Origin: a virus
Length of the DNA: 34,519 bases
Reading direction: 5' to 3' (one strand)
IMG/VR virus record: IMGVR_UViG_3300036403_000041
Location: 1-34,519 of that record
A model generated the notes under the pieces. That model did no database searches and was not told the DNA's origin. It saw only the letters and a program-made list of their open reading frames with translations. The position numbers were made by a program, and so were the translations under genes. Positions within the stretch are counted from its first letter, which is position 1. Each line of letters opens with the position of its first letter. Shown one piece after another: positions 832 to 15,689 of the stretch.

Positions 832-890
832 TATCCGTAACAGGCAGTTAGACAGCCTAAAAAAACCACCCGCCAAGATGGTTGTTACCG

Positions 891-1241: not shown

Positions 1242-1243
1242 AC

Positions 1244-1681: not shown

Positions 1682-2496
1682 ATCCAGCACAACTCAAACC
1701 AGGCACCTGGCTGCTGATTCGTGATCCGCTCGATGACCGGGAATACCGCGCCTGCTTTATAGAGCGCCTACCGTCCTTAGGTTACGGCGACCCTGCGTTA
1801 AATCGTCTGTGCTGCGCGGAGTGGGCCGGTCTACCTTGGGCGGATGAGGCCGGATGCTGCACGTACTCCGACACCTTGGTAGCCCACCACGGCAGGGTGC
1901 TGCTTGAAGACATTGTCAGTCCTTTGCCTGATCCTTTTGGCGCAGCGAGTCAACAAGACTCGAAAATCTTGCCTGCTCCAGAAGCTCTCGATCTTGAACC
2001 TCTTCTAGCGTCTCCTGGTACTCAGGCCACGGCTGTTTTGAGCGAAAAGGCCATGGAGGAATGGAGAGAGAAAGTACGCCTTGAACAACTTGAGCGGCTT
2101 CATAAGCAACTGATCGATAGCCAAGATCCGGATCAACTCGGTGCTCAGCGAGCAGGCGGAGTAATCCCTGCGCGTTCCAGTACTCTTCGTACGCCGCGTA
2201 CACAATCAGCGGGTAGTCGGGATGCTTCTGATACTTGCGCTTGCGCTCTGCGGGTGTCGATAGCACGAAGCCAGAGATCACATTGGCTTGGACTGTCTTC
2301 CAAGCTAGCCACTGTTCATAAGGCCCGCTCGCTAACACTACGCGAACGCCTTCTGCTTGTTCTTCGTCCAGTAAGGCAGTGGCTTCCTGCGCCAGTGCGC
2401 CGGCTTGTTGTGCATGCTTACTTAATGGCATCGATTCTTTCCTCTTGTGAACGAGCGGCCAGTAAGCGTAATGCAAAGGGTGGTGACCATGCGTAA
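1678..2496 (+). CDS. Hypothetical early protein; only the first ~80 residues look genuine
   Basis: It starts at an ATGA overlap with the preceding gene, with GGGAG just upstream. Residues 1-80 (ending near GRVLLEDIVSPLPDPF) read like a compact real protein with conserved-looking Trp, Cys and Asp. From about 1916 onward the frame lies entirely antisense to a convincing minus-strand gene and becomes rich in Ser, Arg and Leu without recognisable structure. The C-terminal 190 residues are therefore probably read-through into inserted DNA, and the ancestral gene probably ended near 1920. Function unknown. Confidence 0.5.
   Translation: MNPAQLKPGTWLLIRDPLDDREYRACFIERLPSLGYGDPALNRLCCAEWAGLPWADEAGCCTYSDTLVAHHGRVLLEDIVSPLPDPFGAASQQDSKILPAPEALDLEPLLASPGTQATAVLSEKAMEEWREKVRLEQLERLHKQLIDSQDPDQLGAQRAGGVIPARSSTLRTPRTQSAGSRDASDTCACALRVSIARSQRSHWLGLSSKLATVHKARSLTLRERLLLVLRPVRQWLPAPVRRLVVHAYLMASILSSCERAASKRNAKGGDHA
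1916..2431 (-). CDS. Probable antisense cargo (moron) gene, function unknown
   Basis: A 171-residue protein read against the early operon. The ATG at 2431 has a strong Shine-Dalgarno sequence (AGAGGAAAG, 8 bases upstream on the minus strand). The composition is that of a soluble, largely helical protein with many aromatics (YPLIVYAAYEEYWNAQ) and an acidic/basic C-terminus (DSLRQKDQAKD). The segment looks less GC-rich than its neighbours, and its orientation would allow expression in a lysogen. No family is recognised. It probably arrived as an insertion between a small early gene and the transposase gene. Confidence 0.65.
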   Translation of the reverse strand: MPLSKHAQQAGALAQEATALLDEEQAEGVRVVLASGPYEQWLAWKTVQANVISGFVLSTPAERKRKYQKHPDYPLIVYAAYEEYWNAQGLLRLLAEHRVDPDLGYRSVAYEAAQVVQGVLSLSIPPWPFRSKQPWPEYQETLEEVQDRELLEQARFSSLVDSLRQKDQAKD

Positions 2497-4537
2497 GTGG
2501 TTCACCGCCCAGGAACTGGTAGGCCTACCGGGAATGCCTGGCACTGTTCAGGGGCTAAATCTCCGCGCCAAGCGTGATGGCTGGGAAGCCCAGCTCCGTT
2601 TAGGGCGTGGTGGTGGCCAGGAGTACTCCTTCGCCGTGTTACCTGCCGAGACTCAAGCTGGCTTATTGGCTCGCATGGTGCAGCAGGAACAACCGCAGGC
2701 CGATGCTGTTCCTGCCGTAGTGCATACGCTCAATACGCCTAAACGTGACGCCATTTCAGCGTCACGCTTAAACGATGATCAACGCTCGGTGATGAATGCT
2801 CGGTTGCTGTTCGTGCGTGAAATCGAACGCATGAGCCAGATGGTCAGCCAACAGCGGGCAATCATGACGCTGGTTGGTCTGGCCCGCGATGGGAAGCTGA
2901 GCCCGTACCTGGCCGAGCGCGTGGAGCGTGCCAACGACCGTAAGAGCGCTGACCGCAGCTTGAGCGAACGCACCCTCAAGCGCTGGCTGGCGGACTTTCG
3001 CAAGCATGGCGAGATCGCTTTGGCACCGGCCCGGCGCAAGCCGGACATGAGCATACCGGCCTGGGCCCCAGTGTTTCTCAAGCACTACCAGCGCCCGCAG
3101 AAGCCGAGCGCAGAAGCGGCCTATGCCGCGTTCAGTGCTGAATATCCAGGCTGCCCGAGCATTCACGCAGTTCGCCGGTTTATGGCCAAGCTGAGCCCTG
3201 AGGCGCGCGAGGCCGGCCGTATGAGCCCGCAGGAATTGAAGTCGCTTAAAGCATTCCACCGCCTCGGTAGCGATCACCTGTGGCCAAACGATGTGTGGGT
3301 GGCTGACGGTCACGCCTTTGATGCGGAAGTGATCGACCCTCGGACGGGCAAACCCTTCCGGCCTGAGATCACCACCTGCCTGGACTGGCGCACTCGCCGC
3401 GTCGTTGGCTACGCCATCAACCTGGCCGAGTCGGCGCTGGCCACGCTGGACATGCTGTGCAGTGGCATAGCCCGCTGCGGGATGTTCCGAGAGTTCTACG
3501 TGGACAACGGGTCGGGCTTCGACAACGCCCAGGTGCGAGAGGTAATCGACCGCCTGGGTGGTGCGATGACCAACGCGCTGCCCTACAACAGCCAAGCCCG
3601 TGGCGTTATCGAGCGCTCGCACAAGTCCATTCTGGTGCGCCTGGCGAAAGAGTTCGACAGCTATATCGGTGCCGACATGGACAAGCAGGCGGGCACCCGC
3701 GTGCACCGCATCAGCCGCAAGGCTCTTAAGTTGGGTGAGCAGGCGAAAGAAATCCCCACTCTGTTCGAGTTCTGGCCACGCCTTGCCGCTGCTCTGGATG
3801 CCTACAACGACCGTCCGCACCGCAGCCTTCCGAAGGCGCGTGACCCGCAAACAGGGCGGATGCGCCACCAGACGCCGAACGAAGCCTGGACGGCTGCTCT
3901 GGCAGATGGTTTTGAGCCGCTGATGGCTTCACTTGATCTGACAACCTCCCTGACTCGCCCGCAAGAAATACGGCGCACTCATCGGGGGGAGGTACGTATC
4001 AACGGTGGCATCTACTTCCTGCGCGAACTGGAGACGATGCACGGCGACCAGGTGAGAGTCGCCTGGGATTACAGGGATGCCAAGCAAGTGGGCATTTTCA
4101 GCCTGGACGGGGAACACATTGGTGAGGCCGTTCTCAACGGCAACGTGCGCCCGGTGTTCACGAAACTTGAGCGTAAGGAAGACACCCGTATCAAGGGCCA
4201 ACTAGCGCGCTTGGCCGTCAAGGGCGAAACGCTCACCGGCAAAGAGGTTGAGGTGCGTGTGATTGAGCCCCGCACCTCCGATGACGCCGTTTACCAGCAC
4301 CGCCTGGTTGAAGCCCAGGAATACACCGCCCGACTGGAGCAGGCCGAACCGGAGTTCCAAATCCCCGGCGATGACATGGCTCGCTACTGGTTCTGGCAAG
4401 ACCTCGACCGTCGACGGGTTAGCGGCGAAAAACTGACCGAAGCCGAGGCCAAGTGGCACGAGAGTTACCCACGCCAGCAGGGCTTCAAATCTATCCAAAA
4501 AATGTATGACTTCGCGGACGAACAGGCCCGCGCTTGA
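2489..4537 (+). CDS. A: Mu A-type DDE transposase
   Basis: A 682-residue transposase/integrase that would cut and join the phage ends during integration and replicative transposition. The N-terminus (KWFTAQELVGLPGMP) matches the Mu-type winged-helix end-binding domain. The catalytic RNase H-fold domain shows D273 (in VADGH), D339 (in YVDNGSG) and E375 (in VIERSHK). It is followed by a Mu-transposase C-terminal beta-barrel region and an end domain that in Mu contacts B. Length is close to Mu A (663). The ATG at 2489 is chosen because AAGGG and GGTG lie just upstream; an in-frame ATG at 2471 has no such site. It is followed closely by gene B. Confidence 0.95.
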   Translation: MRKWFTAQELVGLPGMPGTVQGLNLRAKRDGWEAQLRLGRGGGQEYSFAVLPAETQAGLLARMVQQEQPQADAVPAVVHTLNTPKRDAISASRLNDDQRSVMNARLLFVREIERMSQMVSQQRAIMTLVGLARDGKLSPYLAERVERANDRKSADRSLSERTLKRWLADFRKHGEIALAPARRKPDMSIPAWAPVFLKHYQRPQKPSAEAAYAAFSAEYPGCPSIHAVRRFMAKLSPEAREAGRMSPQELKSLKAFHRLGSDHLWPNDVWVADGHAFDAEVIDPRTGKPFRPEITTCLDWRTRRVVGYAINLAESALATLDMLCSGIARCGMFREFYVDNGSGFDNAQVREVIDRLGGAMTNALPYNSQARGVIERSHKSILVRLAKEFDSYIGADMDKQAGTRVHRISRKALKLGEQAKEIPTLFEFWPRLAAALDAYNDRPHRSLPKARDPQTGRMRHQTPNEAWTAALADGFEPLMASLDLTTSLTRPQEIRRTHRGEVRINGGIYFLRELETMHGDQVRVAWDYRDAKQVGIFSLDGEHIGEAVLNGNVRPVFTKLERKEDTRIKGQLARLAVKGETLTGKEVEVRVIEPRTSDDAVYQHRLVEAQEYTARLEQAEPEFQIPGDDMARYWFWQDLDRRRVSGEKLTEAEAKWHESYPRQQGFKSIQKMYDFADEQARA

Positions 4538-4554
4538 CCAAGGGAGCTACAACA

Positions 4555-5274
4555 ATGAGTGTTTCTAAAATCGTACCGTTGACCAACGTGGGCCTGCTGG
4601 CCAGCGCCATTGAGCGCGCCATGCTGCGTCCGCAGGGTTTGCCAGGCTTGATCGTGATGTATGCGGCCAGCGGCCTTGGTAAGTCGGTGGCTGCAACCTG
4701 GGCTGCTAACCAACATCGCGCCTACTACGTTGAGTGCCGCGATACCTGGACGAAAAAGGCTTTTCTGCTGGCCATCCTGCGCGACATGGGCATCTTGCCT
4801 GGGCGCACCCTGAGCGAGATGGTTGACCAGATCGCCGAGCAACTCAGCCGCAGCAGCCGCCCGCTGATTGTTGATGACGTGCAGTACCTGCTCGACAAGG
4901 CCGCTGCCAACGTCCTGACCGACCTCTACAACGCCAGCCAGGGCACCATCGTGCTGATCGGTGAGGAGCGTGTGCCCGCCAGCCTGGCCAAGCTGGAGCG
5001 CCTGCATAACCGCGTACTGGAGTGGGTGCCAGCCCAGCCCGCCACGGCAGTGGATGTGCAGCAACTGGCCCGCGCCAGTTACCCGAAAGTGAGCATGGCT
5101 GACGATTTGCTGGCCGACCTGCACCGCGAGGTCAAAGGTTGCCTGCGCCGCGTAGCGGTCAACCTCTACCGAGTCCACAGCGAAGCCCAGGCCCTGGGTC
5201 TGAACAGCATGGATTTGGCCACCTGGGCTAAGCGTGGCTGGTACAACGGTCAGCCGCCACGGAGGGGGGTGTAA
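4555..5274 (+). CDS. B: Mu B-type AAA+ ATPase, transposition target activator
   Basis: A 239-residue ATPase. Walker A is AASGLGKS at residues 37-44; Walker B is RPLIVDD with Asp107/Asp108. In Mu, B polymerises on target DNA, stimulates A and gives target immunity. The C-terminal part (VKGCLRRVAVNLYRVHSEAQ) resembles the small helical DNA-binding region of the family. It lacks the N-terminal HTH extension of Mu B (312 residues), as is common in Pseudomonas transposable phages. The ATG at 4555 has AGGGAG upstream. The stop overlaps the next start (TAATG). Confidence 0.92.
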   Translation: MSVSKIVPLTNVGLLASAIERAMLRPQGLPGLIVMYAASGLGKSVAATWAANQHRAYYVECRDTWTKKAFLLAILRDMGILPGRTLSEMVDQIAEQLSRSSRPLIVDDVQYLLDKAAANVLTDLYNASQGTIVLIGEERVPASLAKLERLHNRVLEWVPAQPATAVDVQQLARASYPKVSMADDLLADLHREVKGCLRRVAVNLYRVHSEAQALGLNSMDLATWAKRGWYNGQPPRRGV

Positions 5275-5885
5275 TGGCTACAGGACGCAAGCCCGCCGAC
5301 CTGCAAATGCTGGGCGGCAAAAGCAACCGCCAACGCATTTGGGAAGCCCTGCGCGAGCGCCGTGAAGGTGCCAGCGTGTACAGCCTGGCCCGAGCCGCAA
5401 AGGTTGACGACGACACCGTGCTGACCTACCTGCGCTGCCTGATTGCCGGTGGCTACGTGCTGAAAAACGGCAAAACCTACGCGGTGGCCACCTACACCTT
5501 GCAAAAGGACGTAGGAGCCGAAGCACCGAAGCTCAACCGTGACGGCACGCTCAACACGCAAGGCCAAGGCGTTGAGGCCATGTGGCGCAGCCTGCGCATT
5601 CTGCGCGAAGTGGATGCCCGTGACCTGGTGCAAAGCACCGCGGCCTGTGGCGAGGCCGTCAGCCTGAACACGGCCAAGTCTTACCTGCAGTGGCTGCACA
5701 AAGCCGAGTACCTGGTGCTGGTTGTGGCCGGTAAGCCGGGCCCCCCCGCGACCCTTGCGCGCTACCGCCTGGCCCATGGTGCCGACACCGGCCCGCGCCC
5801 GCCGATGATCCAGCGCGTTGGTCAGGTGTTCGATCCCAACCTGGGTGAAGTGGTTTATCGCCAGCCAGCCGAGGTGGATGAATGA
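5274..5885 (+). CDS. Double winged-helix DNA-binding protein
   Basis: A 203-residue protein translationally coupled to B (TAATG). Two winged-helix-like units can be seen: residues about 18-75 (RQRIWEALRERREG, then TVLTYLRCLIAGGYVLKNGK) and about 102-160 (AMWRSLRILREVDAR, then TAKSYLQWLHKAEYLVLV). Each ends in a beta-hairpin wing. The C-terminus is Pro-rich. It is a typical companion of the transposition genes in this phage group. DNA binding is inferred; the target is unknown. Confidence 0.8.
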   Translation: MATGRKPADLQMLGGKSNRQRIWEALRERREGASVYSLARAAKVDDDTVLTYLRCLIAGGYVLKNGKTYAVATYTLQKDVGAEAPKLNRDGTLNTQGQGVEAMWRSLRILREVDARDLVQSTAACGEAVSLNTAKSYLQWLHKAEYLVLVVAGKPGPPATLARYRLAHGADTGPRPPMIQRVGQVFDPNLGEVVYRQPAEVDE

Positions 5886-6262
5886 ACGCCGTCCGCCTTG
5901 AAGCCTGGGGCGAACAGCCCCCGCTGTTTGTGCAACTGCTGGGGGCCGAAGTGGCCCGCAGCAACATGACCAAAACCGGTCAGCGCATCGGCATGAGCCG
6001 CACTGCCGTCAGCCTGGTACTGGCCAACCGTTACCCATCACCCAGCACGGCCGGCGTTGAACGCCGCGTGATGGATGTGCTGGGCCGCTTGGAGTGCGTC
6101 GCCCTGGGCGAAGTGGTTACCAGCGCGCAGTGCCAAAGCTACCGCGAAAAACCAGCGCCAACCCACAACCCAAACGCGATGCAGCACTGGCGCGCCTGCC
6201 AGTTCTGCGCAAACAACCCTAACTGCAACGCCCAGGAGAACGCCCATGCACGCATCCACTGA
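5882..6262 (+). CDS. HTH protein with Cys-rich C-terminus
   Basis: A 126-residue protein overlapping the preceding gene by 4 bp (ATGA). A Cro/Xre-like HTH lies at about residues 30-50 (TKTGQRIGMSRTAVSLVLAN). The C-terminal half contains five cysteines, including a C-x2-C-x5-C cluster near residues 109-118 (ACQFCANNPNC), which could bind metal. It is probably an early transcription regulator; no specific partner can be named. Confidence 0.78.
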   Translation: MNAVRLEAWGEQPPLFVQLLGAEVARSNMTKTGQRIGMSRTAVSLVLANRYPSPSTAGVERRVMDVLGRLECVALGEVVTSAQCQSYREKPAPTHNPNAMQHWRACQFCANNPNCNAQENAHARIH

Positions 6263-6581
6263 ACGGCCGTTGAAAGTGCTTACCCCGCAACTGGCTGACC
6301 GCCTGCGCGTGTTCAACAGCGCTAGCCGCACCTTGCAGGCCATGGGTATTCGCCTGCACCGCATTGACCCGGTAGCAAACCTGCTGGTGGTCGGCCCCGA
6401 AGACGGCCAGCGCCTGGTGCGTGACCGCCTGACTGAGGGTTATCAGCGCCACCCGTCAGCAGGCAGCACCCGTTACACCGTGATGTTCCAGGGCGTGTCT
6501 CTGGAGTGGCGCGAACCCATTAGCTACCGCGACAACCTGATCATCGCCGCCCCGGCTGCCATCGACCTGACTTTTCACTGA
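6246..6581 (+). CDS. Conserved hypothetical early protein
   Basis: A 111-residue protein starting inside the end of the previous gene. The ATG at 6246 is preceded by AGGAG with good spacing, which fixes the start. It shows alternating beta and alpha segments (VFNSASRTLQAMGIRLHRID, LLVVGPEDGQRLV) and no known motif. Codon usage matches its neighbours. Function unknown. Confidence 0.75.
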   Translation: MHASTERPLKVLTPQLADRLRVFNSASRTLQAMGIRLHRIDPVANLLVVGPEDGQRLVRDRLTEGYQRHPSAGSTRYTVMFQGVSLEWREPISYRDNLIIAAPAAIDLTFH

Positions 6582-6591
6582 GGACAACTGA

Positions 6592-7212
6592 ATGAACGCA
6601 CAACAAACCACCCCGGCCGGCTACCGGAAAAACGCCCAAGGCCACCTGATTCCTGAAAGCCTGATCAAGCCAATCGACATCGAGCGCGACCGTCTGGTGC
6701 AGCACCTGGTTGATCGTGCTAGCGAGCTAAACGGCGAGCTGGCCGACTACAAGGCTGTGGCCTTTGGCGACATCGAGGCTTTTGTGGAAATGAGCGCCGA
6801 GCAGTACGGCGCAAAGGTCGGCGGCAAGAAAGGCAATGTCACCCTGTTTAGCTTTGACGGTCGCTACAAAATCCAGCGCGCGGTACAGGAGCGCATTGCC
6901 TTTGATGAGCGCCTGCAAGCTGCCCGCGCCTTGATCGATGAATGCTTCCAGGAATGGACGCAGAACGCACGGCCCGAAGTAATCGCCCTGGTTAACGATG
7001 CCTTTCGTGCGGATACCAACGGTGAAATCCGTACCGCCCGCGTGCTGGCCTTGCGCCGCTTTGCCATCAGTGACGAACGCTGGCAGCGCGCCATGAGCGC
7101 CATTGGTGAAGCCTGCCAGGTGATCGGCTCCAAGTCCTATATCCGCATCTATGAGCGTGTGGGCGACACCGACCAGTACCGCCCGATCAGCCTTGATATT
7201 GCGGGGGTGTGA
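6592..7212 (+). CDS. DUF3164 family protein
   Basis: A 206-residue protein with GAGGA upstream. Its features match the DUF3164 family, which is common in the early operon of Mu-like phages: an N-terminal motif around GYRKNAQGHLIPESLIKP, a central GGKKGNVTLFSFDGRYKIQR and a C-terminal KSYIRIYERVGDTDQYRPIS. The biochemical role is not established. Confidence 0.88.
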   Translation: MNAQQTTPAGYRKNAQGHLIPESLIKPIDIERDRLVQHLVDRASELNGELADYKAVAFGDIEAFVEMSAEQYGAKVGGKKGNVTLFSFDGRYKIQRAVQERIAFDERLQAARALIDECFQEWTQNARPEVIALVNDAFRADTNGEIRTARVLALRRFAISDERWQRAMSAIGEACQVIGSKSYIRIYERVGDTDQYRPISLDIAGV

Positions 7213-7213
7213 G

Positions 7214-7498
7214 ATGGCCAAGACTTATGCAGTTTGCCAAATCGATGGCCTAATTATGCTGGTCGAGCAGCCACCCGCCGAGGGGCACTTTGCCCTCGCC
7301 GTGGGTGACCTGGCAGTGGTTCGCCAAGTGATTCGTGACACCGCAGAGCCAGCAGCGGCACCACGCGGAAAGCTCGCGCATAAGGTGCCGGGCATCGCGC
7401 CTGATGCAGCCGACCGCGAGAGCCTCGGCAGCATTGCCCGCTACATCCAAACCCTTAGCAAACACAATGCGCCCGGCTTCCGGGCGCTGGGGGTCTGA
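7214..7498 (+). CDS. Small hypothetical early protein
   Basis: A 94-residue protein starting at an ATG one base after the DUF3164 stop codon. The N-terminal half contains beta-prone stretches (TYAVCQIDGLIMLVEQPP), and the C-terminal half a helix (LGSIARYIQTLSKHNAPGF). No family is recognised. Close packing supports co-expression in the early operon. Confidence 0.65.
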   Translation: MAKTYAVCQIDGLIMLVEQPPAEGHFALAVGDLAVVRQVIRDTAEPAAAPRGKLAHKVPGIAPDAADRESLGSIARYIQTLSKHNAPGFRALGV

Positions 7499-7500
7499 AG

Positions 7501-7914
7501 ATGCAGCGCTACCACGACCCGCGCATAGACCCACTGCCGCAGCGCTCGGCCCATCTTGAAGCCGAGGCACTGCGCATCGAGCAGGCCACCCAAGCGTTTC
7601 TGGCTAATGGCGGAAAGATCGAGCAGATCGGCTACCAGATGAGTGATGCGCCAACGACCTTTGTGATCAACCCGGAGAAAACCCCGGTCTATGCGCACCT
7701 GTTCCAGCCCCCGGCTGGTGAGATTGATGCACCACAGGTAGCGCCGGTAGTAGAGCCGGCTTGCGATCTGGAAGCCAAGCAGGCCGCGCAGATCATGGCG
7801 CGCGCAGCCCTGGGCGAGCCGCCGAAGTGGATCGCCAAGCAACTGCACATGACCGAAAAGCGCGTGCGCCAACTGGCCCGCGACTACCACATCAGCTTTC
7901 GTGCACAGCGTTAG
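7501..7914 (+). CDS. HTH-containing hypothetical early protein
   Basis: A 137-residue protein. The N-terminal 90 residues are of unknown type. The C-terminal 45 carry a likely HTH (AAQIMARAALGEPPKWIAKQ followed by MTEKRVRQLARDY), which resembles sigma-like or resolvase-like DNA-binding helices. DNA binding is inferred. It is followed by a gene with its own AGGAG site. Confidence 0.7.
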   Translation: MQRYHDPRIDPLPQRSAHLEAEALRIEQATQAFLANGGKIEQIGYQMSDAPTTFVINPEKTPVYAHLFQPPAGEIDAPQVAPVVEPACDLEAKQAAQIMARAALGEPPKWIAKQLHMTEKRVRQLARDYHISFRAQR

Positions 7915-7922
7915 GAGCATCA

Positions 7923-8135
7923 ATGGCCAAGGTCATCATCACCCTGGAAGACAACACCGACCGCGTAACCGTATCCATGGATATGGCGGGCGCTCCGACC
8001 AACTTGCTGGGCATGCCGCAGCCAACACGGGCTGTGCAGATGTCACAAACGCTGTTCGATCTGGCAGCAGTAGACGCCAAGCTCAGCGGCTTGCCGGCCT
8101 GCGCCCGACAGCCATCGAACATGACCATTCACTAA
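7923..8135 (+). CDS. Small hypothetical protein ending inside ribozyme 1
   Basis: A 70-residue protein with a clear AGGAG before the ATG. It has an N-terminal beta strand pair (AKVIITLEDNTDRVTVSMDM) and a helical middle (MSQTLFDLAAVDAKL). Its last codons (Ile-His-stop) and stop TAA (8133-8135) are part of the conserved 5' segment of the hammerhead-like RNA. The gene at 8212-8619 ends in the same way. Cleavage at 8167/8168 would leave this mRNA with a structured 3' end 32 bases after its stop codon. Function unknown. Confidence 0.7.
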   Translation: MAKVIITLEDNTDRVTVSMDMAGAPTNLLGMPQPTRAVQMSQTLFDLAAVDAKLSGLPACARQPSNMTIH

Positions 8136-8198
8136 GCGAAACCGCCCCGGCCTGGCCGGTGGTGGTCTGCTCAGCGTGGTGGCTGGGTACTGATGAGC
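8129..8198 (+). ncRNA. Type II hammerhead-like self-cleaving ribozyme, copy 1
   Basis: All core positions of a hammerhead are present in type II order. GAAA is at 8138-8141 and CUGAUGA at 8190-8196, with the G8197-C8137 and C8198-G8136 pairs of a short stem II. Stem III is 8141-8150 with 8156-8166 (10 pairs, U8160 bulged). It ends in the GUC triplet 8165-8167, so cleavage is expected between 8167 and 8168. Stem I is 8168-8175 with 8182-8189 (8 pairs), loop GUGGUG. Loop bases 8176-8179 can also pair with UCAC at 8129-8132. The RNA starts in the last codons of the upstream gene and ends just before the GAGGA (8203-8207) of the next one. Confidence 0.9.
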
Positions 8199-8211
8199 AG
8201 CCGAGGACGAT

Positions 8212-8619
8212 ATGCAGCAAGAAGATTGGGACGCGCTTAAAGAGCAGATGGCCAGCCCTTACGGGAGCATGCGGTTGCAGTGCGACAAGTTCGAACTGGC
8301 ACTGCATCAGGCGGTCGATTCAAAGAGCAGAAAGTGGGTTACAGCCGTCTACGTCGACGGGGTTTTTAAAGGAGCCTGGACAAGCGCAACCAAAGAGGGC
8401 GAGCCAGAACACGAAGAGGCCCGCCGCTTCCTGCGCAAAGTTAGCAAAGCAGTATTCACAGCCAAAGAAGTTGAGCAGTACCGAAAAGCCCTGGGGAAAC
8501 GCCGGGCAAACGAGGTAGCGGCAAAACGACACGTCTACTTCTTGCCGACCTGGAGCAGCTTCAACAGCCTGAAAAAGCACCTGATAACCAACAACACCAG
8601 CATCGAACGCATCCACTAA
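8212..8619 (+). CDS. Hypothetical protein framed by two hammerhead-like ribozymes
   Basis: A 135-residue, basic protein. The ATG at 8212 follows GAGGA at 8203-8207, directly after ribozyme 1. The N-terminal half has a beta-rich segment with WVTAVYVDGVFKGAW. The middle is a charged helix (EHEEARRFLRKVSKAVFTAK), and the C-terminus contains KRRANEVAAKRHVYFLP followed by SSFNSLKKHL. No family is recognised; nucleic-acid binding is possible from the charge. Cleavage at 8167/8168 and 8648/8649 would place the entire ORF with its ribosome binding site on its own 481-nt RNA. This arrangement is not shared with any other gene in the window. Confidence 0.75.
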   Translation: MQQEDWDALKEQMASPYGSMRLQCDKFELALHQAVDSKSRKWVTAVYVDGVFKGAWTSATKEGEPEHEEARRFLRKVSKAVFTAKEVEQYRKALGKRRANEVAAKRHVYFLPTWSSFNSLKKHLITNNTSIERIH

Positions 8620-8679
8620 GCGAAACCTCGCCCATCAGGGCGAAGGTCTGCCGGGTGTGGTTGCCCGGTACTGATGAGC
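8613..8679 (+). ncRNA. Type II hammerhead-like self-cleaving ribozyme, copy 2
   Basis: It has the same architecture as copy 1 with different stem sequences. GAAA is at 8622-8625 and CUGAUGA at 8671-8677; the short stem II is G8678-C8621 and C8679-G8620. Stem III is 8625-8633 with 8638-8647 (9 pairs, A8644 bulged, loop AUCA). The GUC triplet is at 8646-8648, with cleavage expected between 8648 and 8649. Stem I is 8649-8656 with 8663-8670 (8 pairs), loop GUGGUU. Loop bases 8657-8660 (GUGG) pair perfectly with CCAC at 8613-8616. The stem sequences differ from copy 1 but pairing is kept, which is covariation. Confidence 0.9.
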
Positions 8680-8686
8680 AGCCAAG

Positions 8687-8965
8687 ATGAGTGAAAGCAA
8701 AAGTGAACGACGACGCCGCCTAAGCCGCGCCCGTTCCGCACGTTATCGCGCAGCCAAGCGCAAGCAGAAGCAAGTGATCAAGGCCGTTAAGTTCAAGGCT
8801 GAGTTGGGCGCTGGAACCATGGCAGACATGGAGAGCATCCGCCTGGCCGGCGACCTGACAACGGTTGAGGAAGGTTTGACCCTGGCTGTTCGCTACATGG
8901 CAGGCCTCGCCCGTCGCGACCCACAGGCATTCCGCGATGCCATGAACCCGAGGAACCCTGTATGA
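8687..8965 (+). CDS. Small basic hypothetical protein
   Basis: A 92-residue protein. The first 40 residues are extremely basic (SERRRRLSRARSARYRAAKR), suggesting nucleic-acid binding or a disordered arm. The rest is a small helical domain (VEEGLTLAVRYMAGLARRDP). Its ATG lies only 10 bases after the 3' end of ribozyme 2, with no clear Shine-Dalgarno sequence. Its translation could therefore depend on RNA folding or cleavage. It overlaps gemA by 4 bp (ATGA). Confidence 0.72.
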   Translation: MSESKSERRRRLSRARSARYRAAKRKQKQVIKAVKFKAELGAGTMADMESIRLAGDLTTVEEGLTLAVRYMAGLARRDPQAFRDAMNPRNPV

Positions 8966-9369
8966 GCGCAGGCAAGCAGAAAATCCAGATTGCCCGCCGC
9001 CAGCTTGGCCTGGACGATGATGCCTATTACGCAATCCTGGCCCGCGTTGCTGGCGTGAAAAGCTCCAAAGACCTGACACCAGGTCAAATCGGCCGTGTTC
9101 TGATCGAGTTGGAGCGCCTGGGCTTCAAACCAAAGCCAGCAAAGAAGACTAGCCGCGCCGCCCCCAAGCCAGCGCCTGACCGCGCCGCCCAGGTAGCCAA
9201 GATCGAGGCCTTCCTGGCAGAAGCCAATCGCCCCTGGAGCTATGCCGATGCCATGGCCCTGCGCATGTTCAAGGTTGAGCGCGTCGAGTGGTGCGACGCT
9301 GACCAGCTGCGCCGCCTGATTGCCGCTCTGACCTACGATGCCAAACGCCACGGGAGGCCTGTGCAGTGA
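8962..9369 (+). CDS. gemA: GemA/gp16 family regulatory protein (DUF1018)
   Basis: A 135-residue protein matching the Mu gp16/GemA family (DUF1018). The N-terminal motif KIQIARRQLGLDDDAYYAIL is followed by a Lys/Pro/Ala linker (KPKPAKKTSRAAPKPAP). The C-terminal domain contains WCDADQLRRLIAALTYDAKR. In Mu, GemA modulates expression of host and phage genes and DNA supercoiling. It precedes mor with a 4-bp overlap, the usual gene order in transposable phages. Confidence 0.88.
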   Translation: MSAGKQKIQIARRQLGLDDDAYYAILARVAGVKSSKDLTPGQIGRVLIELERLGFKPKPAKKTSRAAPKPAPDRAAQVAKIEAFLAEANRPWSYADAMALRMFKVERVEWCDADQLRRLIAALTYDAKRHGRPVQ

Positions 9370-9803
9370 AGATTGAACAGGCGCATGATCTGTTACCGCC
9401 GACTGTGCAGCGCATCGCCGAAGTGGTGGGGCTGCCTGCCACTATGAAACTGGTAGCCGAGTTGGGCGGTACATCCTGGTTCTTCGCCCAGGGTGTTGGC
9501 CGCAATGGCCAGGCCCGCGTCGCAGCCCTGGCAGAGATTGTTGGCGAGGAGGCGGCCGAGAAGCTCGGGCGCTATGCCAGCGAGCGCGAAACGATCTACA
9601 TACCCAAGTGTGATGCGGCATTGCTGGCGCTGCGCGATGCCGAGATTCACCGCCAATTTGAACAAGCGACCCGCGAGAGTGTCAGTGCTAATACGGTTGT
9701 TGCCGAGCTGGCCCGTACCTACAAGCTCAGCGACCGTCACGTCTGGCGCATTCTCAAGCGCCTGCCTGAGCTGGCCCAGCCGATCCGCGACCTGTTCAGC
9801 TAA
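9366..9803 (+). CDS. mor: Mor/C family transcription activator
   Basis: A 145-residue protein starting at GTG in a GTGA overlap with gemA. It has the Mor/C layout: an N-terminal dimerisation region (LPPTVQRIAEVVGLPATMKL, GGTSWFFAQG) and a C-terminal HTH (TVVAELARTYKLSDRHVWRI). In Mu, Mor turns on middle and C turns on late transcription. Here only one such protein is seen, and it lies directly before the late operon, so it probably does the late switch. Its likely target is the 53-bp module at 9806, 17585 and 19584. Confidence 0.9.
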   Translation: MKIEQAHDLLPPTVQRIAEVVGLPATMKLVAELGGTSWFFAQGVGRNGQARVAALAEIVGEEAAEKLGRYASERETIYIPKCDAALLALRDAEIHRQFEQATRESVSANTVVAELARTYKLSDRHVWRILKRLPELAQPIRDLFS

Positions 9804-9804
9804 G

Positions 9805-9861
9805 TTACTGACACCCGTTCCTTAATCCCCGCAACTCGCTGCCGCTGACCATAGCGGCATG
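9805..9861 (+). promoter_or_regulatory. Late leader module, copy A (putative late promoter/5' UTR)
   Basis: The first of three ungapped 53-bp relatives. Shared parts are TACTGACAC at 9806, a pyrimidine stretch ending TAATCC, then a hairpin TGCCGC-N8-GCGGCA directly before the ATG at 9859. Homology continues into the first codons (ATGAAC). There is no ordinary Shine-Dalgarno sequence between hairpin and ATG. Position after mor and before the late operon suggests an activator-dependent late promoter. Confidence 0.65.
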
Positions 9862-10200
9862 AACAATCAAGCCCCCGTATCCCAAGCGAACCCACGCGAC
9901 CTGGCCGCAGCCGTCCTGGCTGAGCCATCGCTTGAACAGCGCCAGTTGATGCTTGCACGTTGCCCGGCAGAGTTGCTGCCGCTGGTAAAGGAATACGTGC
10001 AGATGGGCTTTGCCAAGGTAAAAAGCTACCGGGCACACATCGACCGTCGCACAAAAAGCGCACGCGAAACCCCACCAGCGGCACCCCGTCGCGAAGCCAA
10101 AAACAGCGTCATTCACCACACCAGTTCCGCGCCTGAGTTTGGCAATCAGCGCCTGGCCGAGCTGCGCGCGTTGATCGGAGGTGCACCCCGTGGGAGTTAA
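9859..10200 (+). CDS. First gene of late operon, hypothetical
   Basis: A 113-residue protein. The N-terminal 60 residues are helical (LAAAVLAEPSLEQRQLMLAR, LLPLVKEYVQMGFAK). Then comes a basic, Pro/Ala-rich linker (RRTKSARETPPAAPRREAK) and a short C-terminal helix (NQRLAELRALIGG). Its start codon abuts the hairpin of late leader module A. It overlaps the endolysin start. Function unknown. Confidence 0.72.
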   Translation: MNNQAPVSQANPRDLAAAVLAEPSLEQRQLMLARCPAELLPLVKEYVQMGFAKVKSYRAHIDRRTKSARETPPAAPRREAKNSVIHHTSSAPEFGNQRLAELRALIGGAPRGS

Positions 10201-10690
10201 GACCCGTATCGCGTTGGCAATCGTTGCCGCCACACCTGTTGTCGCCCTCTATGAAGGACGCGATCTGCTGGCCCACCTCGACCCTGTTGGTATTCCGACC
10301 ATCTGCGAGGGGTGGACGCGAGGTGTGCGCCTTGGTGATGTTGCGACGGATGCCGAGTGCGACCAGAAAACCCAGCTCGCCCTCCAGGAAGCTGCGGACG
10401 TTTTCGAGCGTTGGGTGCCTGCCAAGGTTATCGGCGGCATGGACACAAAAAGTATCGCGGCCTTTCTGTCCTTTATCTACAACGTCGGCCCAGGCAAGCC
10501 AGGCGTCAAAGATGGCTTTGTCTGGCTCAAGAATGGCCGCCACTCGACCATGCTGCTGCACCTCCAGGCCGGGCGCATTCAGCCGGCCTGCGCACAACTC
10601 AGCTACTGGGTGAGCGCGGGAGGTCGCAAGTTTCGTGGGCTTGAGCGTCGTCGTGCAGCCGAGCGCCAGATGTGCGAGGCGGCCCTATGA
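10190..10690 (+). CDS. Endolysin, T4 lysozyme-like muramidase (GH24), probably SAR type
   Basis: A 166-residue muramidase that would cleave the peptidoglycan glycan strands. The catalytic triad is Glu22, Asp31 and Thr37 in EGRDLLAHLDPVGIPT, with exactly the T4 lysozyme spacing (9 and 6). A weakly hydrophobic, Ala-rich N-terminus (IALAIVAATPVVAL) directly before the catalytic Glu fits a signal-arrest-release sequence, so the enzyme may reach the periplasm without a classical holin pore. The GTG at 10190 is chosen because CGGAGG is 8 bases upstream; the GTG at 10181 would overlap that site. Overlaps Rz (ATGA). Confidence 0.92.
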   Translation: MGVKTRIALAIVAATPVVALYEGRDLLAHLDPVGIPTICEGWTRGVRLGDVATDAECDQKTQLALQEAADVFERWVPAKVIGGMDTKSIAAFLSFIYNVGPGKPGVKDGFVWLKNGRHSTMLLHLQAGRIQPACAQLSYWVSAGGRKFRGLERRRAAERQMCEAAL

Positions 10691-11316
10691 ACTGGTTAAG
10701 CCTGCTCCGGCCACTGGTGCCGTTTCTGCTGATCGGCGCTTTGTTCTGGCTGCATGGGTCAATGCTCCAGGGCGCATATGACAAGGGCTTTGCCCAGGCC
10801 CAAAGCGATGGTGACTTGGCCCTAGAAAAGCTGCGCCTGGAGCATATCCAGCTTGATCTGGAGCGAGCAAACGCCCGCGAAGTCAGTGCCAAAGCAGCCG
10901 CTAAAAAGCTGCTCGATGAGCAAGCCCGCAATGACAAGCTAGCCGCCGACCTGGCCGACCAGCAGCGCGCACACCGCACCACCACCGACCGCCTCACAGA
11001 GGAGATTGCCCGTGTTAACGACCTCTATCGCGACGCGCTCGACGCGCCGCCTAAGCCTCTGCCTGCTTGCGTGTTCACTGCTGGTTGGGTGCGCGTTTAT
11101 GACGAAGCAACCGGAGCCATCGCAGCCGGAATGTCCTCGGCCACCGATACCGGCCGAGCTACTGCGCAAAGCGCCGAAAGCCGAGCCGCTGAGCAACTCG
11201 ATTCAGGCATCAGCCAGCGCGACGTCCTGGAGCATCACGTCCGCTACGCCGAGCAGTGCCGTAACACTGCCGCGCAGTTGGATCTTCTGATTGATGCCGT
11301 ACAGGGGGCGCACTGA
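10687..11316 (+). CDS. Rz: Rz-like inner-membrane spanin subunit
   Basis: A 209-residue protein with one N-terminal transmembrane segment (about residues 7-24, LRPLVPFLLIGALFWLHG). A long charged coiled coil follows (LALEKLRLEHIQLDLERANA through LAADLADQQRAHRTTTDRLT). This is the i-spanin pattern that, with an outer-membrane partner, fuses the two membranes at lysis. The partner is embedded in another frame at 11012-11290. The C-terminal region (RDVLEHHVRYAEQCRNTAAQ) resembles other Mu-like Rz proteins. Confidence 0.85.
   Translation: MNWLSLLRPLVPFLLIGALFWLHGSMLQGAYDKGFAQAQSDGDLALEKLRLEHIQLDLERANAREVSAKAAAKKLLDEQARNDKLAADLADQQRAHRTTTDRLTEEIARVNDLYRDALDAPPKPLPACVFTAGWVRVYDEATGAIAAGMSSATDTGRATAQSAESRAAEQLDSGISQRDVLEHHVRYAEQCRNTAAQLDLLIDAVQGAH
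11012..11290 (+). CDS. Rz1: Rz1-like outer-membrane lipoprotein spanin, embedded in Rz
   Basis: A 92-residue protein in a different frame inside Rz. GTG at 11012 is preceded by GGAG at 11001-11004. It has an N-terminal signal peptide (RRLSLCLLACSLLVGC) with lipobox LVGC, giving lipidated Cys27. A Pro-rich mature part follows (QPEPSQPECPRPPIPAE), as in o-spanins. Full embedding in Rz is a known arrangement in lambda. The last 35 residues are Ser/Thr/Ala-rich and may be less constrained. Confidence 0.85.
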   Translation: MLTTSIATRSTRRLSLCLLACSLLVGCAFMTKQPEPSQPECPRPPIPAELLRKAPKAEPLSNSIQASASATSWSITSATPSSAVTLPRSWIF

Positions 11317-11756
11317 TGCAGATGGAATTTGCCGAGCTGATTGGCTGGGCCATCTCGCTGTTGTCGATCTCCACCACGGTGGTGTTCGGCTTGGTCAAGC
11401 TGCTGCTAGGCAGCTTCGAGAAACGCCTGGCCGAGCGCTTCGCCGCCCAGGACGAGGCACGCAAAGCCGCCAGTCGACACTGGGAGGACAGCTTTGCCAA
11501 GGTGCTGGAACGCCAGGATAAAGATGCCGAAGCCTTAGCACATAGCTTCGCCAGGGTGTTGGAGCGGCAGGACAAGGATGCCGAAGCCCTGGCACAGCTC
11601 GACCGCGCCTTCCTGCGCTTCCAGGCAGACCTGCCCGTGGCGTATGTGCGCCGCGAGGACTGGGCGCGGGGGCAATCGGTGATCGAAGCCAAGCTGGATG
11701 GCCTGGCGCTCAGGTACGAAAACATTCTGCTCAAAGGAGCATCACGACATGATTGA
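11316..11756 (+). CDS. DUF2730-like membrane-anchored coiled-coil protein
   Basis: A 146-residue protein coupled to Rz (TGATG). One N-terminal membrane segment (LIGWAISLLSISTTVVFGLV) is followed by a coiled coil. An 18-residue unit (SFAKVLERQDKDAEALAH) is repeated in tandem with few changes, encoded by 11490-11543 and 11544-11597. Its place between the lysis genes and the small terminase matches DUF2730 proteins of Mu-like phages. The role in virion assembly or lysis is not established. Confidence 0.78.
   Translation: MQMEFAELIGWAISLLSISTTVVFGLVKLLLGSFEKRLAERFAAQDEARKAASRHWEDSFAKVLERQDKDAEALAHSFARVLERQDKDAEALAQLDRAFLRFQADLPVAYVRREDWARGQSVIEAKLDGLALRYENILLKGASRHD
11490..11597 (+). repeat. 54-bp tandem duplication in the DUF2730-like gene
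   Basis: Two adjacent 54-bp units encode the 18-residue repeat SF(A)(K/R)VLERQDKDAEALA. Protein identity is higher than DNA identity, so the duplication is not very recent and is kept under selection as coiled coil. Confidence 0.75.
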
Positions 11757-12060
11757 CCTTGCAAAGTCCCGCCGCGAATCGCTGCGCTGGTACATCCTGC
11801 TGATTCTTAATACCTCGCGGCCTATCGACCCGCATGAAGCCGTGGTGCTCTCAACCATCCAGGCCATGTACGCGGACGCCACCCTGCTGGAGTTGCGCCG
11901 CGAGTTGGACTACCTGGAGCACCGTAGCCTGGTCACGCTGAATAAGCAGCCAAGTGGCCAGTGGATTTGCGGCCTGACCCACTACGGCGTCGATATCGCC
12001 GAATACACCGTGGACTGCCGCCCCGGCATCGCCCGCCCGGAAAAGTACTGGAGCGCCTGA
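11749..12060 (+). CDS. Winged-helix phage protein (Mu gp26 position; VpaChn25_0724-like)
   Basis: A 103-residue protein. The ATG at 11749 has AAGGAG at good spacing. It has a small winged-helix fold signature: RESLRWYILLILNTSRP, then LLELRRELDYLEHRSLVTLN, then a wing-like strand with GQWICGLTHYGVDIA. Its order, between DUF2730 and DUF3486, matches the head-packaging block of Mu-like phages, where a protein of this size is always found. The function is not proven. Confidence 0.82.
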   Translation: MIDLAKSRRESLRWYILLILNTSRPIDPHEAVVLSTIQAMYADATLLELRRELDYLEHRSLVTLNKQPSGQWICGLTHYGVDIAEYTVDCRPGIARPEKYWSA

Positions 12061-12061
12061 T

Positions 12062-12574
12062 ATGCCGCCGCGCAGCAAGGTGCTGGCACTTCCGCCCGAG
12101 GTAAAGGCGTGGCTTGACCAGGCGTTGATCGAGAACAATTTCAGCCAATACGAGTTGCTGTCGTCTGCCTTGGCTGAGCGCGGCCACAGCATCGGCAAAT
12201 CTGCGCTGCACGAATATGGCCAGAACTTCGAAGGCCGACTGGCCGCGTTGAGAACGGCTAGCGAGCAGGCAAAAGCCATGGTCGCGGCCGCCCCTGATGA
12301 TGAGGGTGCCGTCAACGAAGCATTGATGCGCCTGGTGCAAGAGCATCTGTTCAAGCTGCTGATGAGCGAAGGCGGACAGATCGACCTGCCCAAGGTGGCC
12401 AAGGCCGTGGCCGAGCTTGGCCGCGCCTCTGTGGTGCAAAAAAAGTGGCAGGCGGAGGTGCGCGAGCGTGCCGAAACAGCCGCCAATGCCGTGGAAAAGA
12501 TTGCCAAAAAAGGTGGGCTTACCGCTGACACCGTGGCCGAAATGCGCCGCGAGATTCTCGGGGTGGCCAAGTGA
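12062..12574 (+). CDS. DUF3486 protein, probable small terminase subunit (Mu gp27-like)
   Basis: A 170-residue helical protein with the DUF3486 hallmarks. The N-terminus is PPRSKVLALPPEVKAWLDQA, followed by a DNA-binding HTH (FSQYELLSSALAERGHSIGK). Two long helices then lead to the C-terminus TVAEMRREILGVAK. In Mu this position encodes the packaging initiator that recognises phage DNA and hands it to the large terminase. The next gene starts in its stop codon (GTGA). Confidence 0.9.
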   Translation: MPPRSKVLALPPEVKAWLDQALIENNFSQYELLSSALAERGHSIGKSALHEYGQNFEGRLAALRTASEQAKAMVAAAPDDEGAVNEALMRLVQEHLFKLLMSEGGQIDLPKVAKAVAELGRASVVQKKWQAEVRERAETAANAVEKIAKKGGLTADTVAEMRREILGVAK

Positions 12575-14112
12575 ATGTTCCCGCGCAAATCCCCAATACA
12601 GCAGACCTAGATATTCCGGCCGTCCTGCTGCCGTACCAGCAAGAATGGCTCGCCGAACAAGGCCCGCTGGTGGTCATCGAGAAAAGCCGCCGTACTGGCC
12701 TGACCTGGGCCGAGGCTGCTGACGATGTGCTGCTGTCCGCCTCGGCCAAGGACGCGGGCGGGATGAACACCTATTACATCGCCTATAACCAGGACATGAC
12801 CATTGAGTACATCCAGGCCTGTGCGATGTGGGCGCGGATGTTTAACCACGCCGCTAGCGAGATCGAGGAAGGCATCTGGGAAGACGGCGACAAGCACATC
12901 AAGACCTTTGGCATCACCTTTCCTGGTAGTGGCCACCGCATTGTTGCCCTGACTAGCCGCCCCTCCAACCTGCGTGGCCGCCAGGGCCGTGTGGTACTTG
13001 ATGAGGCCGCGTTCCACGATCAGTTAGAGGAAGTGCTAAAAGCTGCCTTGGCGCTGTTGATCTGGGGTGGCCAGCTGCGTGTTATCTCGACCCATAACGG
13101 GGTGAAGAACGCATTCAACACCCTGATTCAGGACATCCGCGCAGGTAAGCGTAAGGGTGTGGTGCAGCGCATCACCTTCCGCGATGCGGTCGCCCATGGG
13201 CTGTACCGACGCGTATGCATGCGCTTGGGCAAAGAGTGGACGCAGGCGGCCGAGGACGCCTGGGTCGCCGATGTGTATGCCTTTTATGGCGACGGTGCCG
13301 CCGAAGAGCTGGACTGCATCCCGGCCGAGTCGGCAGGCGCTGCACTGTCGCGCGCCCTGGTCGAGTCGCGCATGGTCGACGCGCCCGTGGTGCGCCTGAA
13401 AATGGCGGATGAGTTCACCCACTGGGATGAACGCCTGCGCGAGGCTGAGATTCGTGACTGGTGTGAGCGCGAGCTGCTGCCCTTGCTCAAGCTGCTCGAC
13501 CCGCAACAACTGCATGCCTTTGGTGAAGACTTCGGCCGTACCGGCGACCTCACGGTGATCGCGCCGTACTCGGTCGGCCTCGATCTGCGTTGCCGTGTGC
13601 CGTTCCTGGTCGAGCTGCGCAACATGCCGTACCGGCAACAGGAACAGGTGCTGTTCTACATCGTCGACCGCTTGCCACGCCTGATGGGCGGAGCGATGGA
13701 CGCCACCGGCAACGGCGGGTATCTGGCCGAGGCCGCGGGCCACCGCTACGGCGGCTGCATCCAGCAAGTGAAGCTCTCCGACCGTTGGTACATGGACAAC
13801 ATGCCAGCCTTTAAGGCGGCGTTTGAGGATGCCCTGCTGGAGATACCGCGTGATGCCCTGGTGCTCGATGACTTGCGAGCGCTGCAGATGATCGACGGCA
13901 TTCTCAAGCTCGGTAAGAGCCGCACCCAGGGCGAAGGTGGCCAACGCCACGGCGACGCCGCGATTGCTTTGGCACTGGGTTATGCCGCCACCCGACTTGA
14001 GGTTGAAAGCTATGGCTATGAGCCCGTGCGCCCTGACCGCAACAACAAACCCGGTTTTGATGATGATAACGCTGGCCCGGTGAACACCTGGGCGGCTGGA
14101 GGTGTTCTGTAA
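12571..14112 (+). CDS. Large terminase subunit (Mu gp28-like)
   Basis: A 513-residue packaging motor and nuclease. The ATPase shows Walker A KSRRTGLT (residues 38-45) and Walker B VVLDEAAF (141-148, Asp144/Glu145). The RNase H-like nuclease shows candidate metal-binding Asp320 (in GEDFGRTGD), Asp377 (in AMDATGNGG) and Asp462 (in HGDAAIALALGY). It would pump DNA into the prohead and, in Mu style, cut it headful-wise from integrated copies. It starts at GTG overlapping the small subunit stop and is coupled to the portal gene by TAATG. Confidence 0.94.
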   Translation: MNVPAQIPNTADLDIPAVLLPYQQEWLAEQGPLVVIEKSRRTGLTWAEAADDVLLSASAKDAGGMNTYYIAYNQDMTIEYIQACAMWARMFNHAASEIEEGIWEDGDKHIKTFGITFPGSGHRIVALTSRPSNLRGRQGRVVLDEAAFHDQLEEVLKAALALLIWGGQLRVISTHNGVKNAFNTLIQDIRAGKRKGVVQRITFRDAVAHGLYRRVCMRLGKEWTQAAEDAWVADVYAFYGDGAAEELDCIPAESAGAALSRALVESRMVDAPVVRLKMADEFTHWDERLREAEIRDWCERELLPLLKLLDPQQLHAFGEDFGRTGDLTVIAPYSVGLDLRCRVPFLVELRNMPYRQQEQVLFYIVDRLPRLMGGAMDATGNGGYLAEAAGHRYGGCIQQVKLSDRWYMDNMPAFKAAFEDALLEIPRDALVLDDLRALQMIDGILKLGKSRTQGEGGQRHGDAAIALALGYAATRLEVESYGYEPVRPDRNNKPGFDDDNAGPVNTWAAGGVL

Positions 14113-15689
14113 TGGATGAGTCGCCAATCCTGGACGCGAGCGGTAAGCCGTTCCTCAAGAAGTCCATGCTGCAAGAGGTGATCCAGGCCACTACAACCGG
14201 CGTTCACCAGGCCTGGGGCGTTGACTCGGTATCGTCCTCGCTCGACCCGGCGCGCCTGCGCACCATCCTGCAGAACGCTGCTACCGGCGACATCCTGGAG
14301 TACCTGGTACTCGCCGAAGAGATGGAAGAGAAAGACCTGCACTACGCCTCGGTGTTGGGCACCCGTAAGCGCGCTGTCGCTGGCGTTCCGGTCAGTGTTG
14401 AGGCCGGTGGCGAGGATACCCGCGCGGAGGAAATCGCCGACGCCGTGCGCAAGCTGGTCGAGGCCCCGGAGTTTTCCGACTTGGTGAGCGATCTGCTCGA
14501 TGGTTTGGGTAAAGGCTTTTCGGCTGTTGAGCCAGACTGGGAGCTCAAAGGCGAGCAGCTGTGGCCGGTGAAGTACGATCACCGCGACCCGCGCTGGTTC
14601 CAGTTCGACAAGCTGACCGGCCGTAAGCTGCTGATCCGTGAGGAAGCCGGCGAAGGTCGCGAGATTCCGCCCGGCCGGATGATTGTTCATATCCCCAAGT
14701 TGAAGTCGGGCCTGCCGATCCGTGGCGGTTTGGCGCGCCTGGTGGCCGTGTCTTATATGTGCAAGGCGTTCAGCCTCAAGGACTGGATGCGCTATGCCGA
14801 ACTGTACGGCCAGCCAATGCGTATTGGCCGCTATGGTCCTGGAGCCAAGCCGGACGATATTGCTGTTCTGCGCCGGGCGGTTGCGCAGCTGGCGGCTGAT
14901 GCTGCGGCCATCCTGCCCAAGGACATGCTGATCGAGTTCCAGAAGATCGCCGACTCAACAGGCGGTGCCGAACTGTTCGCGCGCCTGGCCGAGTGGCTGG
15001 ACAGGCAAGTCAGCAAGGCCGTACTCGGCCAGACCATGACCACCGACGATGGGTCGAGCCAGAGCCAGGCCACCGTGCATAACGATGTGCGCCTCGACAT
15101 TCTCAAGGCCGACGCCAAGCAGTTGGCCGCTACGATCAACCGCGACCTGGTGCGCGTGTTCGTCGATTACAACTTCGGCCCACAGCAAAACTACCCGAGC
15201 GTTGCATTCCAGGTTACTGAGCCTGAGGACTTGAAGGCCCTGGCCGATGCCCTGACGCCGTTTATTGATCGCGGCCTGCAAGTCGAGCAGTCAGCAATTC
15301 TGGAGCGGTTCGGCCTATCCGCCCCGGCCGAGGGCGCGCAGTTGCTCAAGCCAACAGGCCAGCAGCCAGTTGCCGGGCCGGCCCTCAATACTGAGCAACG
15401 TTGCAGCTGTCCGGGGTGCGGTGGCCACCGCCAGGCACTCAACCAGGAACATAAGCCCCGCGACAGTCTGGACACGCTGGTTGATGAAGCCGCCGCCGAC
15501 TGGGTGCCCGTGATGCGGCCGATGCTCGATCCGGTGTTGCAGTTGGCGAAGGACTCCGACGACTTCGATACCTTCCGGGCTGGCCTGGCCGGTTTGCTTG
15601 AACAGATGGACGATAGCGTCTTGATTGAGCAGCTCGCCCGCGCAGCTTTCAAGGCGCGCGGCCAAGGCGATGCAGGCGACGCGCTGTGA
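14112..15689 (+). CDS. Portal protein (DUF935, Mu gp29-like)
   Basis: A 525-residue protein forming the dodecameric DNA entry ring. It carries the DUF935 portal features: ARLRTILQNAATGDILEYLV near the N-terminus, HYASVLGTRKRAVAGVPVSV, the stem and clip region around KDWMRYAELYGQPMRIGRYG, and AVLGQTMTTDDGSSQSQA. Length is near Mu gp29 (512). An unusual Cys/Gly-rich patch (CSCPGCGGHR, about residue 432) lies in the C-terminal region. The stop overlaps the F-like gene start (GTGA). Confidence 0.94.
   Translation: MDESPILDASGKPFLKKSMLQEVIQATTTGVHQAWGVDSVSSSLDPARLRTILQNAATGDILEYLVLAEEMEEKDLHYASVLGTRKRAVAGVPVSVEAGGEDTRAEEIADAVRKLVEAPEFSDLVSDLLDGLGKGFSAVEPDWELKGEQLWPVKYDHRDPRWFQFDKLTGRKLLIREEAGEGREIPPGRMIVHIPKLKSGLPIRGGLARLVAVSYMCKAFSLKDWMRYAELYGQPMRIGRYGPGAKPDDIAVLRRAVAQLAADAAAILPKDMLIEFQKIADSTGGAELFARLAEWLDRQVSKAVLGQTMTTDDGSSQSQATVHNDVRLDILKADAKQLAATINRDLVRVFVDYNFGPQQNYPSVAFQVTEPEDLKALADALTPFIDRGLQVEQSAILERFGLSAPAEGAQLLKPTGQQPVAGPALNTEQRCSCPGCGGHRQALNQEHKPRDSLDTLVDEAAADWVPVMRPMLDPVLQLAKDSDDFDTFRAGLAGLLEQMDDSVLIEQLARAAFKARGQGDAGDAL

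Follow-up and report, generated by a model that had tools for sequence, protein, structure and literature searches.

Type II hammerhead ribozymes with a pseudoknot were described in 2011 by Perreault et al. in multiple copies flanking prophage genes of varying identity, and the sections of that article considered here report that the tandem hammerheads of phages and prophages cleave in vitro and propose a dicing of phage transcripts (PMC3088659). Among them, a triple set around ardA in Agrobacterium tumefaciens, active in vitro and also in E. coli, likewise consists of several hammerheads that divide a polycistronic RNA of phage type at the boundaries between genes (PMC3088659, same sections). 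In a 2017 review, the role of hammerheads in bacteria and phages was still an open question (PMC6155905). Two hammerheads releasing a unit-length RNA also occur in retrozymes and viroid-like RNAs; those pairs are of type I or III and feed the replication of RNA circles, whereas the pair described here is of type II and lies in a protein-coding phage operon.

We analysed a stretch of viral DNA of 34,519 bases, called the window below. Phage genes flanked by hammerhead pairs have been on record since 2011 and the pair of the window belongs to that kind: it has in common with the prophage hammerheads of Perreault et al. the architecture, the core and the loop I-tail pseudoknot (PMC3088659 in the sections considered; RF02276), as well as a position around single phage genes that are not always the same. 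Compared with the set presented in those sections, what differs here is a regular succession of stop codon, ribozyme and ribosome-binding site, a defined exchangeable slot in one phage lineage and the existence of recombinant ribozymes. The genes and the host are not those of the A. tumefaciens set, for which the same sections describe no slot exchange, and the tandem sets that they present go up to a triple, against 24 copies in an array found here in another phage. The open-licence literature searched yielded no mention of recombination inside ribozymes, of a defined slot or of a 24-copy array. We consider it probable that the ribozymes of this early operon cut the mRNA into single-gene messages, insulate the genes from each other and allow them to be swapped by recombination.

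Identification and structure of the two ribozymes

An Rfam scan (cmscan) of the 34,519 bases returned RF02276 (Hammerhead_II) in two places only and no other RNA family. Both matches are full length (model positions 1-66 of 66) and on the plus strand: ribozyme 1, at 8134-8206, scored 68.2 bits (E 2.5e-12) and ribozyme 2, at 8618-8687, scored 68.3 bits (E 2.3e-12), for a gathering score of 37 bits. This covariance search confirmed what the initial annotation had proposed, two type II hammerheads around one small gene, and our own covariance model, R1, gave 74.3 bits for ribozyme 1 and 71.7 bits for ribozyme 2. The parts of the two elements are the following:

8133-8209, plus strand: ribozyme 1, whole element, extent matched by model R1 (RF02276 at 8134-8206)
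8136-8141, plus strand: ribozyme 1, 5' strand of stem II (GC) and core GAAA, read in the sequence
8141-8167, plus strand: ribozyme 1, stem III hairpin and GUC, predicted cut at 8167/8168
8168-8189, plus strand: ribozyme 1, stem I of 8 pairs with loop GUGGUG (8176-8181), read in the sequence
8178-8180 with 8200-8202, plus strand: ribozyme 1, pseudoknot of GGU in loop I with GCC in the tail, from sequence and covariation
8190-8202, plus strand: ribozyme 1, core CUGAUGA (8190-8196), 3' strand of stem II (GC) and tail AGCC
8617-8690, plus strand: ribozyme 2, whole element, from the RF02276 and R1 matches
8622-8625 and 8646-8648, plus strand: ribozyme 2, core GAAA and GUC, predicted cut at 8648/8649
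8649-8670, 8671-8677 and 8680-8683, plus strand: ribozyme 2, stem I, CUGAUGA and tail AGCC

The strand order is the same in both copies (GC, GAAA, stem III hairpin, GUC, stem I hairpin, CUGAUGA, GC, AGCC), with stems I and III closed by loops and stem II open, as in type II. Both have GUC as NUH cleavage triplet and a GGU in loop I pairing with the GCC of the tail. The predicted cuts, after C8167 and C8648 and 481 nt apart, agree exactly with the sites annotated initially, and the 8 pairs and 6-nt loop given for stem I are those read in the sequence (GUGGUG and GUGGUU). The accompanying statement that most paired bases of stem I differ between the copies has to be corrected: only 4 of the 8 pairs differ (2 of them on both sides), and the phrase would better fit stem III.

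When each element is folded alone, the ribozyme stems are reachable at 0-0.7 kcal/mol above the free minimum in both copies. For ribozyme 1 in a longer context, the computed fold prefers other pairings, with a stem I probability of 0.01-0.12, in models which leave out the pseudoknot and the non-canonical core. Misfolding of ribozyme 1 was considered and rejected, the other pairings being favoured in the long context and not by the element alone. Judged by its sequence, the window carries two genuine type II hammerhead ribozymes, for which self-cleavage is predicted.

Conservation and covariation in relatives

We derived a covariance model from 24 diverse members; applied to the collected loci, it retrieved 69 distinct members of the lineage, in which the core (GAAA, C17 and CUGANGA) is essentially invariant and the stems covary. 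The GAA of the core is present in all 69 and its last A in 68, the exception being a weak match (L151) where the pairing partner of this base changes too. Position N7 is the free position of the hammerhead core, and it varies freely among the 69 members (T in 55, C in 13, G in 1). The only G is that of the ribozyme at 5417-5486 of locus L126, which reads CUGAGGA.

The covariation claimed at first for the two copies of the window was borne out on both wide sets: the 24 divergent ribozymes have 95% of cells paired, two-sided changes at 13 of 19 pairs and a covariation score of 0.655 versus 0.182 in shuffles, and the 69 distinct matches have 96.2% of pair cells paired, with two-sided changes at 12 of 16 pairs and 22-45% pairing in slid controls, the first alignment being hand-picked and the second fitted to the model, so that both lean towards structure, while the margins are large. 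The pseudoknot is paired at 94.4% in the 24 sequences, including two replacements of GC by AU. Compensatory changes thus occur in stems I and III and in the pseudoknot; the pairs of stem II are invariant and, since they never vary, give no support either way.

Gene context and the stop-ribozyme-start layout

By its neighbouring early genes, the window is a Mu-like transposable phage of the Pseudomonas type, in agreement with the early-region placement proposed initially. The interval bounded by a 70-aa gene on the left and by the gene before GemA on the right is called the slot, and its surroundings are:

2447-4537, plus strand: MuA
4534-5274, plus strand: MuB-like ATPase
6592-7212, plus strand: DUF3164 gene
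7923-8135, plus strand: 70-aa gene of family c4, left of the slot (ORF, homologues at the same place in relatives)
8203-8207, plus strand: GAGGA, likely ribosome-binding site of slot gene A, directly 3' of the pseudoknot strand
8212-8619, plus strand: slot gene A, 135 aa, phrog_5671
8687-8965, plus strand: 92-aa gene, phrog_4093, 3' of ribozyme 2
8962-9369, plus strand: GemA (Pfam PF06252), right flank of the slot
9366-9803, plus strand: Mor

Both ribozymes point in this same direction between co-directional, tightly spaced early genes, and each fills the gap between the stop codon of the 5' gene and the ribosome-binding site on its 3' side: the TAA of the 70-aa gene (8133-8135) adjoins ribozyme 1 and that of gene A (8617-8619) adjoins ribozyme 2. 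No promoter-like site was found in positions 1-12000 of the window, which fits, weakly, a single early transcript that would span both predicted cut sites when intact; no intrinsic terminator coinciding with the ribozymes was found on the plus strand.

AlphaFold models gene A with confidence (pLDDT 93); the model matches no fold in the PDB and one unnamed viral structure, and family searches gave only phrog_5671 and a sub-threshold match to DUF7568. Its invariant residues are C24, D25, W56, F73, R75, K96, W114 and L124. A small gene of the early operon 5' of the slot (7220-7498) matches phrog_1518, named host nuclease inhibitor.

In 96 of 161 unique phage hammerheads, GCGAAA is preceded at a distance of 2-8 nt by the stop codon of an upstream open frame. 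Almost no stop codon falls inside the element, and the ATGs of open frames cluster about 16-45 nt past the beginning of CUGAUGA. Use of the core AUG (CUG-AUG-A) as a start codon was rejected, its frame being open for at least 40 codons in 51 of the 161 (32%), less than the 48% of control ATGs. Genes 5' of a ribozyme mostly end with His-stop (CAY TRA GCGAAA), in the window (8130-8135 and 8614-8619) as in relatives. The His codon as a part of the ribozyme was also rejected: CAY-TRA-GCGAAA is absent from the 24-copy array, and is thus lineage-specific.

With this layout, each ribozyme would fold, as the RNA polymerase passes, in the gap between two cistrons and cut after GUC while transcription proceeds. 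Cuts at 8167/8168 and 8648/8649 would release a 481-nt single-gene mRNA for gene A. This message would open with the stem I hairpin bearing a 5'-OH, carry a ribosome-binding site of its own and end in the stem III hairpin with a 2',3'-cyclic phosphate. Each ribozyme would in this way insulate the expression of one gene from that of its neighbours, which may be why the elements are retained. A ribosome terminating at the adjoining stop would cover the GAAA strand, so that cutting would be expected to occur between ribosomes.

Another conceivable function is a translation switch, in which the fold would keep hold of the core strand until the cut drops the GCGAAA strand and frees the CUGAUGAG strand for ribosome loading. 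The 92-aa gene after ribozyme 2 would suit it, its ATG standing 16 nt past the beginning of CUGAUGA without a separate Shine-Dalgarno sequence, as would its counterparts in many relatives (ATG 16-18 nt past this point, no other Shine-Dalgarno), and the ribosome-binding site after ribozyme 1 directly adjoins the pseudoknot strand. Against this, a distinct GAGG is usually available to the genes that follow ribozyme 1 (most relatives whose slot is occupied have it at this position), the genes of the 24-ribozyme array mostly have a GAGGTG-like site, and no ligand domain or regulator was seen; we regard such a switch as unlikely.

An exchangeable slot in Pseudomonas Mu-like phages

Relatives of the slot were drawn from IMG/VR, GTDB genomes and phage records. 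Three gene families, A, B and C, make up its contents, which are variable: empty, A, B, C+B, A+C, B+C or A+B, gene B being a DUF2786 + DUF7168 protein (Pfam). All Pseudomonas loci spanning the slot that were examined have a ribozyme with an intact core, so that the combination named as refuting in the initial annotation, flanking genes kept and core lost, was not found there; more distant GemA relatives are without ribozyme. Of 399 sampled Pseudomonas genomes, 21 carry the ribozyme, and in all 4 sampled genomes with a gene A homologue a ribozyme lies 5-8 nt upstream of the gene. In locus L126 the order is ribozyme-A-ribozyme-B. Many relatives have a slot gene with only one ribozyme, located upstream, which indicates that excision of the single gene is not essential for a slot gene. 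The final His of gene B is usual when a ribozyme directly follows and never present when none follows, a pattern consistent with a carried seam.

The transposable phages of P. aeruginosa (DMS3, D3112, JBD30) have a ribozyme at the same position as the window, between the small upstream gene and the one that precedes GemA. In about 120 phage records of this kind there is one ribozyme, with the slot empty or occupied only by B (JBD24, LPB1), whereas the window has two ribozymes around A. In the record of LESphi4 (OQ594957), the ribozyme is already annotated as RF02276. The gp17 of DMS3 is annotated from 9136, while an in-frame ATG stands right after the ribozyme at 9022 (L003 5083-5379, corresponding to 9022-9318 of the record), which probably extends the gene by 38 codons. 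In the same gp17 start region, D3112 seems to differ by one base.

Recombination inside the ribozymes

The clearest case concerns two loci with 97.6% identity upstream and 93.5% downstream of the slot, L130, which reads ribozyme-B-ribozyme, and L129, which has one ribozyme and no B. In a site-by-site comparison that sets private differences aside, the informative sites of the L129 ribozyme up to GGUCUGCC are all those of L130 ribozyme 1 and all the following ones are those of ribozyme 2. On these sites, the L129 ribozyme is a recombinant, with the switch located within 8 shared bases around the cut site. This chimera implies the gain or the loss of a gene by recombination inside a ribozyme, gene B having been either lost in L129 or gained in L130. 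A second pair (L238 and L139) is similar and less clear.

The same signature was found in 8 single-ribozyme loci without slot gene, whose 5' half is nearest to first copies in 7 of 8 and whose 3' tail is nearest to second copies in 8 of 8. Swapping labels within loci reaches both counts in 0.2% of trials, although this value of 0.002 is not a strict probability, the loci being related and picked after viewing an earlier comparison. The affinity of stem I goes either way, which points to switches in either conserved block, and in three loci (L003, L131 and L237) the switch is found beyond stem I and not at the cut. Breaks at the edges were also observed: gene B is inserted just 3' of the ribozyme in JBD24 compared with D3112 (98% identity on both sides), and the break is at the 5' edge in LPB1 and at the 3' edge in LESphi4, PA38 and Cline, but alignments may reach a ribozyme edge merely because ribozymes are conserved, a bias which the chimeric cases alone escape. 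The same early regions are also mosaic at gene junctions without ribozymes; the ribozymes are thus seams, yet not the only ones.

Another reading is that the pair would excise the 481-nt gene A RNA for circularisation, by RtcB or by self-ligation, or that the outer RNAs would be spliced together. The chimeric junction of L129 is the sequence expected from ligation across the slot, an excised RNA would bear the 5'-OH and 2',3'-cyclic phosphate ends, and of 17 hosts whose genomes carry such prophages, 9 encode RtcB. A match to RtcB is nevertheless absent in the other 8, many phages have a single ribozyme, and Perreault et al. sought spliced or circular products and, according to the sections of their article considered here, detected none (PMC3088659). 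The three loci switching after stem I, away from the cut, point instead to DNA recombination, and such circularisation or splicing appears quite improbable to us.

We keep to recombination of the DNA, by which a gene between two ribozymes would be gained, lost or swapped, the junction being again a complete ribozyme; what would make such swaps possible is the compact block of stop codon, ribozyme and ribosome-binding site that is repeated on both sides. That the elements now act only as DNA homology blocks or mRNA-end hairpins with their catalysis unused, as the breakpoints falling in ribozymes could suggest, is highly improbable, since it is exactly the catalytic core that is invariant, with only N7 free and compensatory changes in the stems, which is hard to explain without catalysis.

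Ribozyme arrays in other phages

The largest array was found in IMGVR_UViG_3300017605_000570 (L169, G038), a contig whose terminase, portal and tail sheath genes identify a tailed phage and which has 24 RF02276 matches in 7.6 kb (9932-17520, minus strand). One small gene occupies 21 or 22 of the 23 gaps, usually starting 7-14 nt after a ribozyme and stopping at the next one, and most of these genes have a GAGGTG-like site rich in purines. Smaller clusters, with about 3-10 type II hammerheads each, are present in the phage contigs L170 (G035), L171 (G036), L095, L121, L090, L087 and L104. The array of 24 far exceeds the two or three per cluster in the literature searched, and points to an operon with a predicted self-cutting ribozyme at nearly every gene junction.

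Implications for phage operons

A slot bounded by ribozymes, which recombine and yet stay intact, offers a concrete and testable answer to the question of the role of hammerheads, and the lineage carrying it has cultured members (DMS3, D3112). More tentatively, type II hammerheads of tailed phages in general may act as mRNA cutters when RNA and as gene-exchange seams when DNA, because any two ribozymes that recombine would restore a complete one, preceded by a stop codon and followed by a start site. If this is true, early phage operons would be arrays of cassettes punctuated by ribozymes, with an extreme of 24 ribozymes for about 22 genes.
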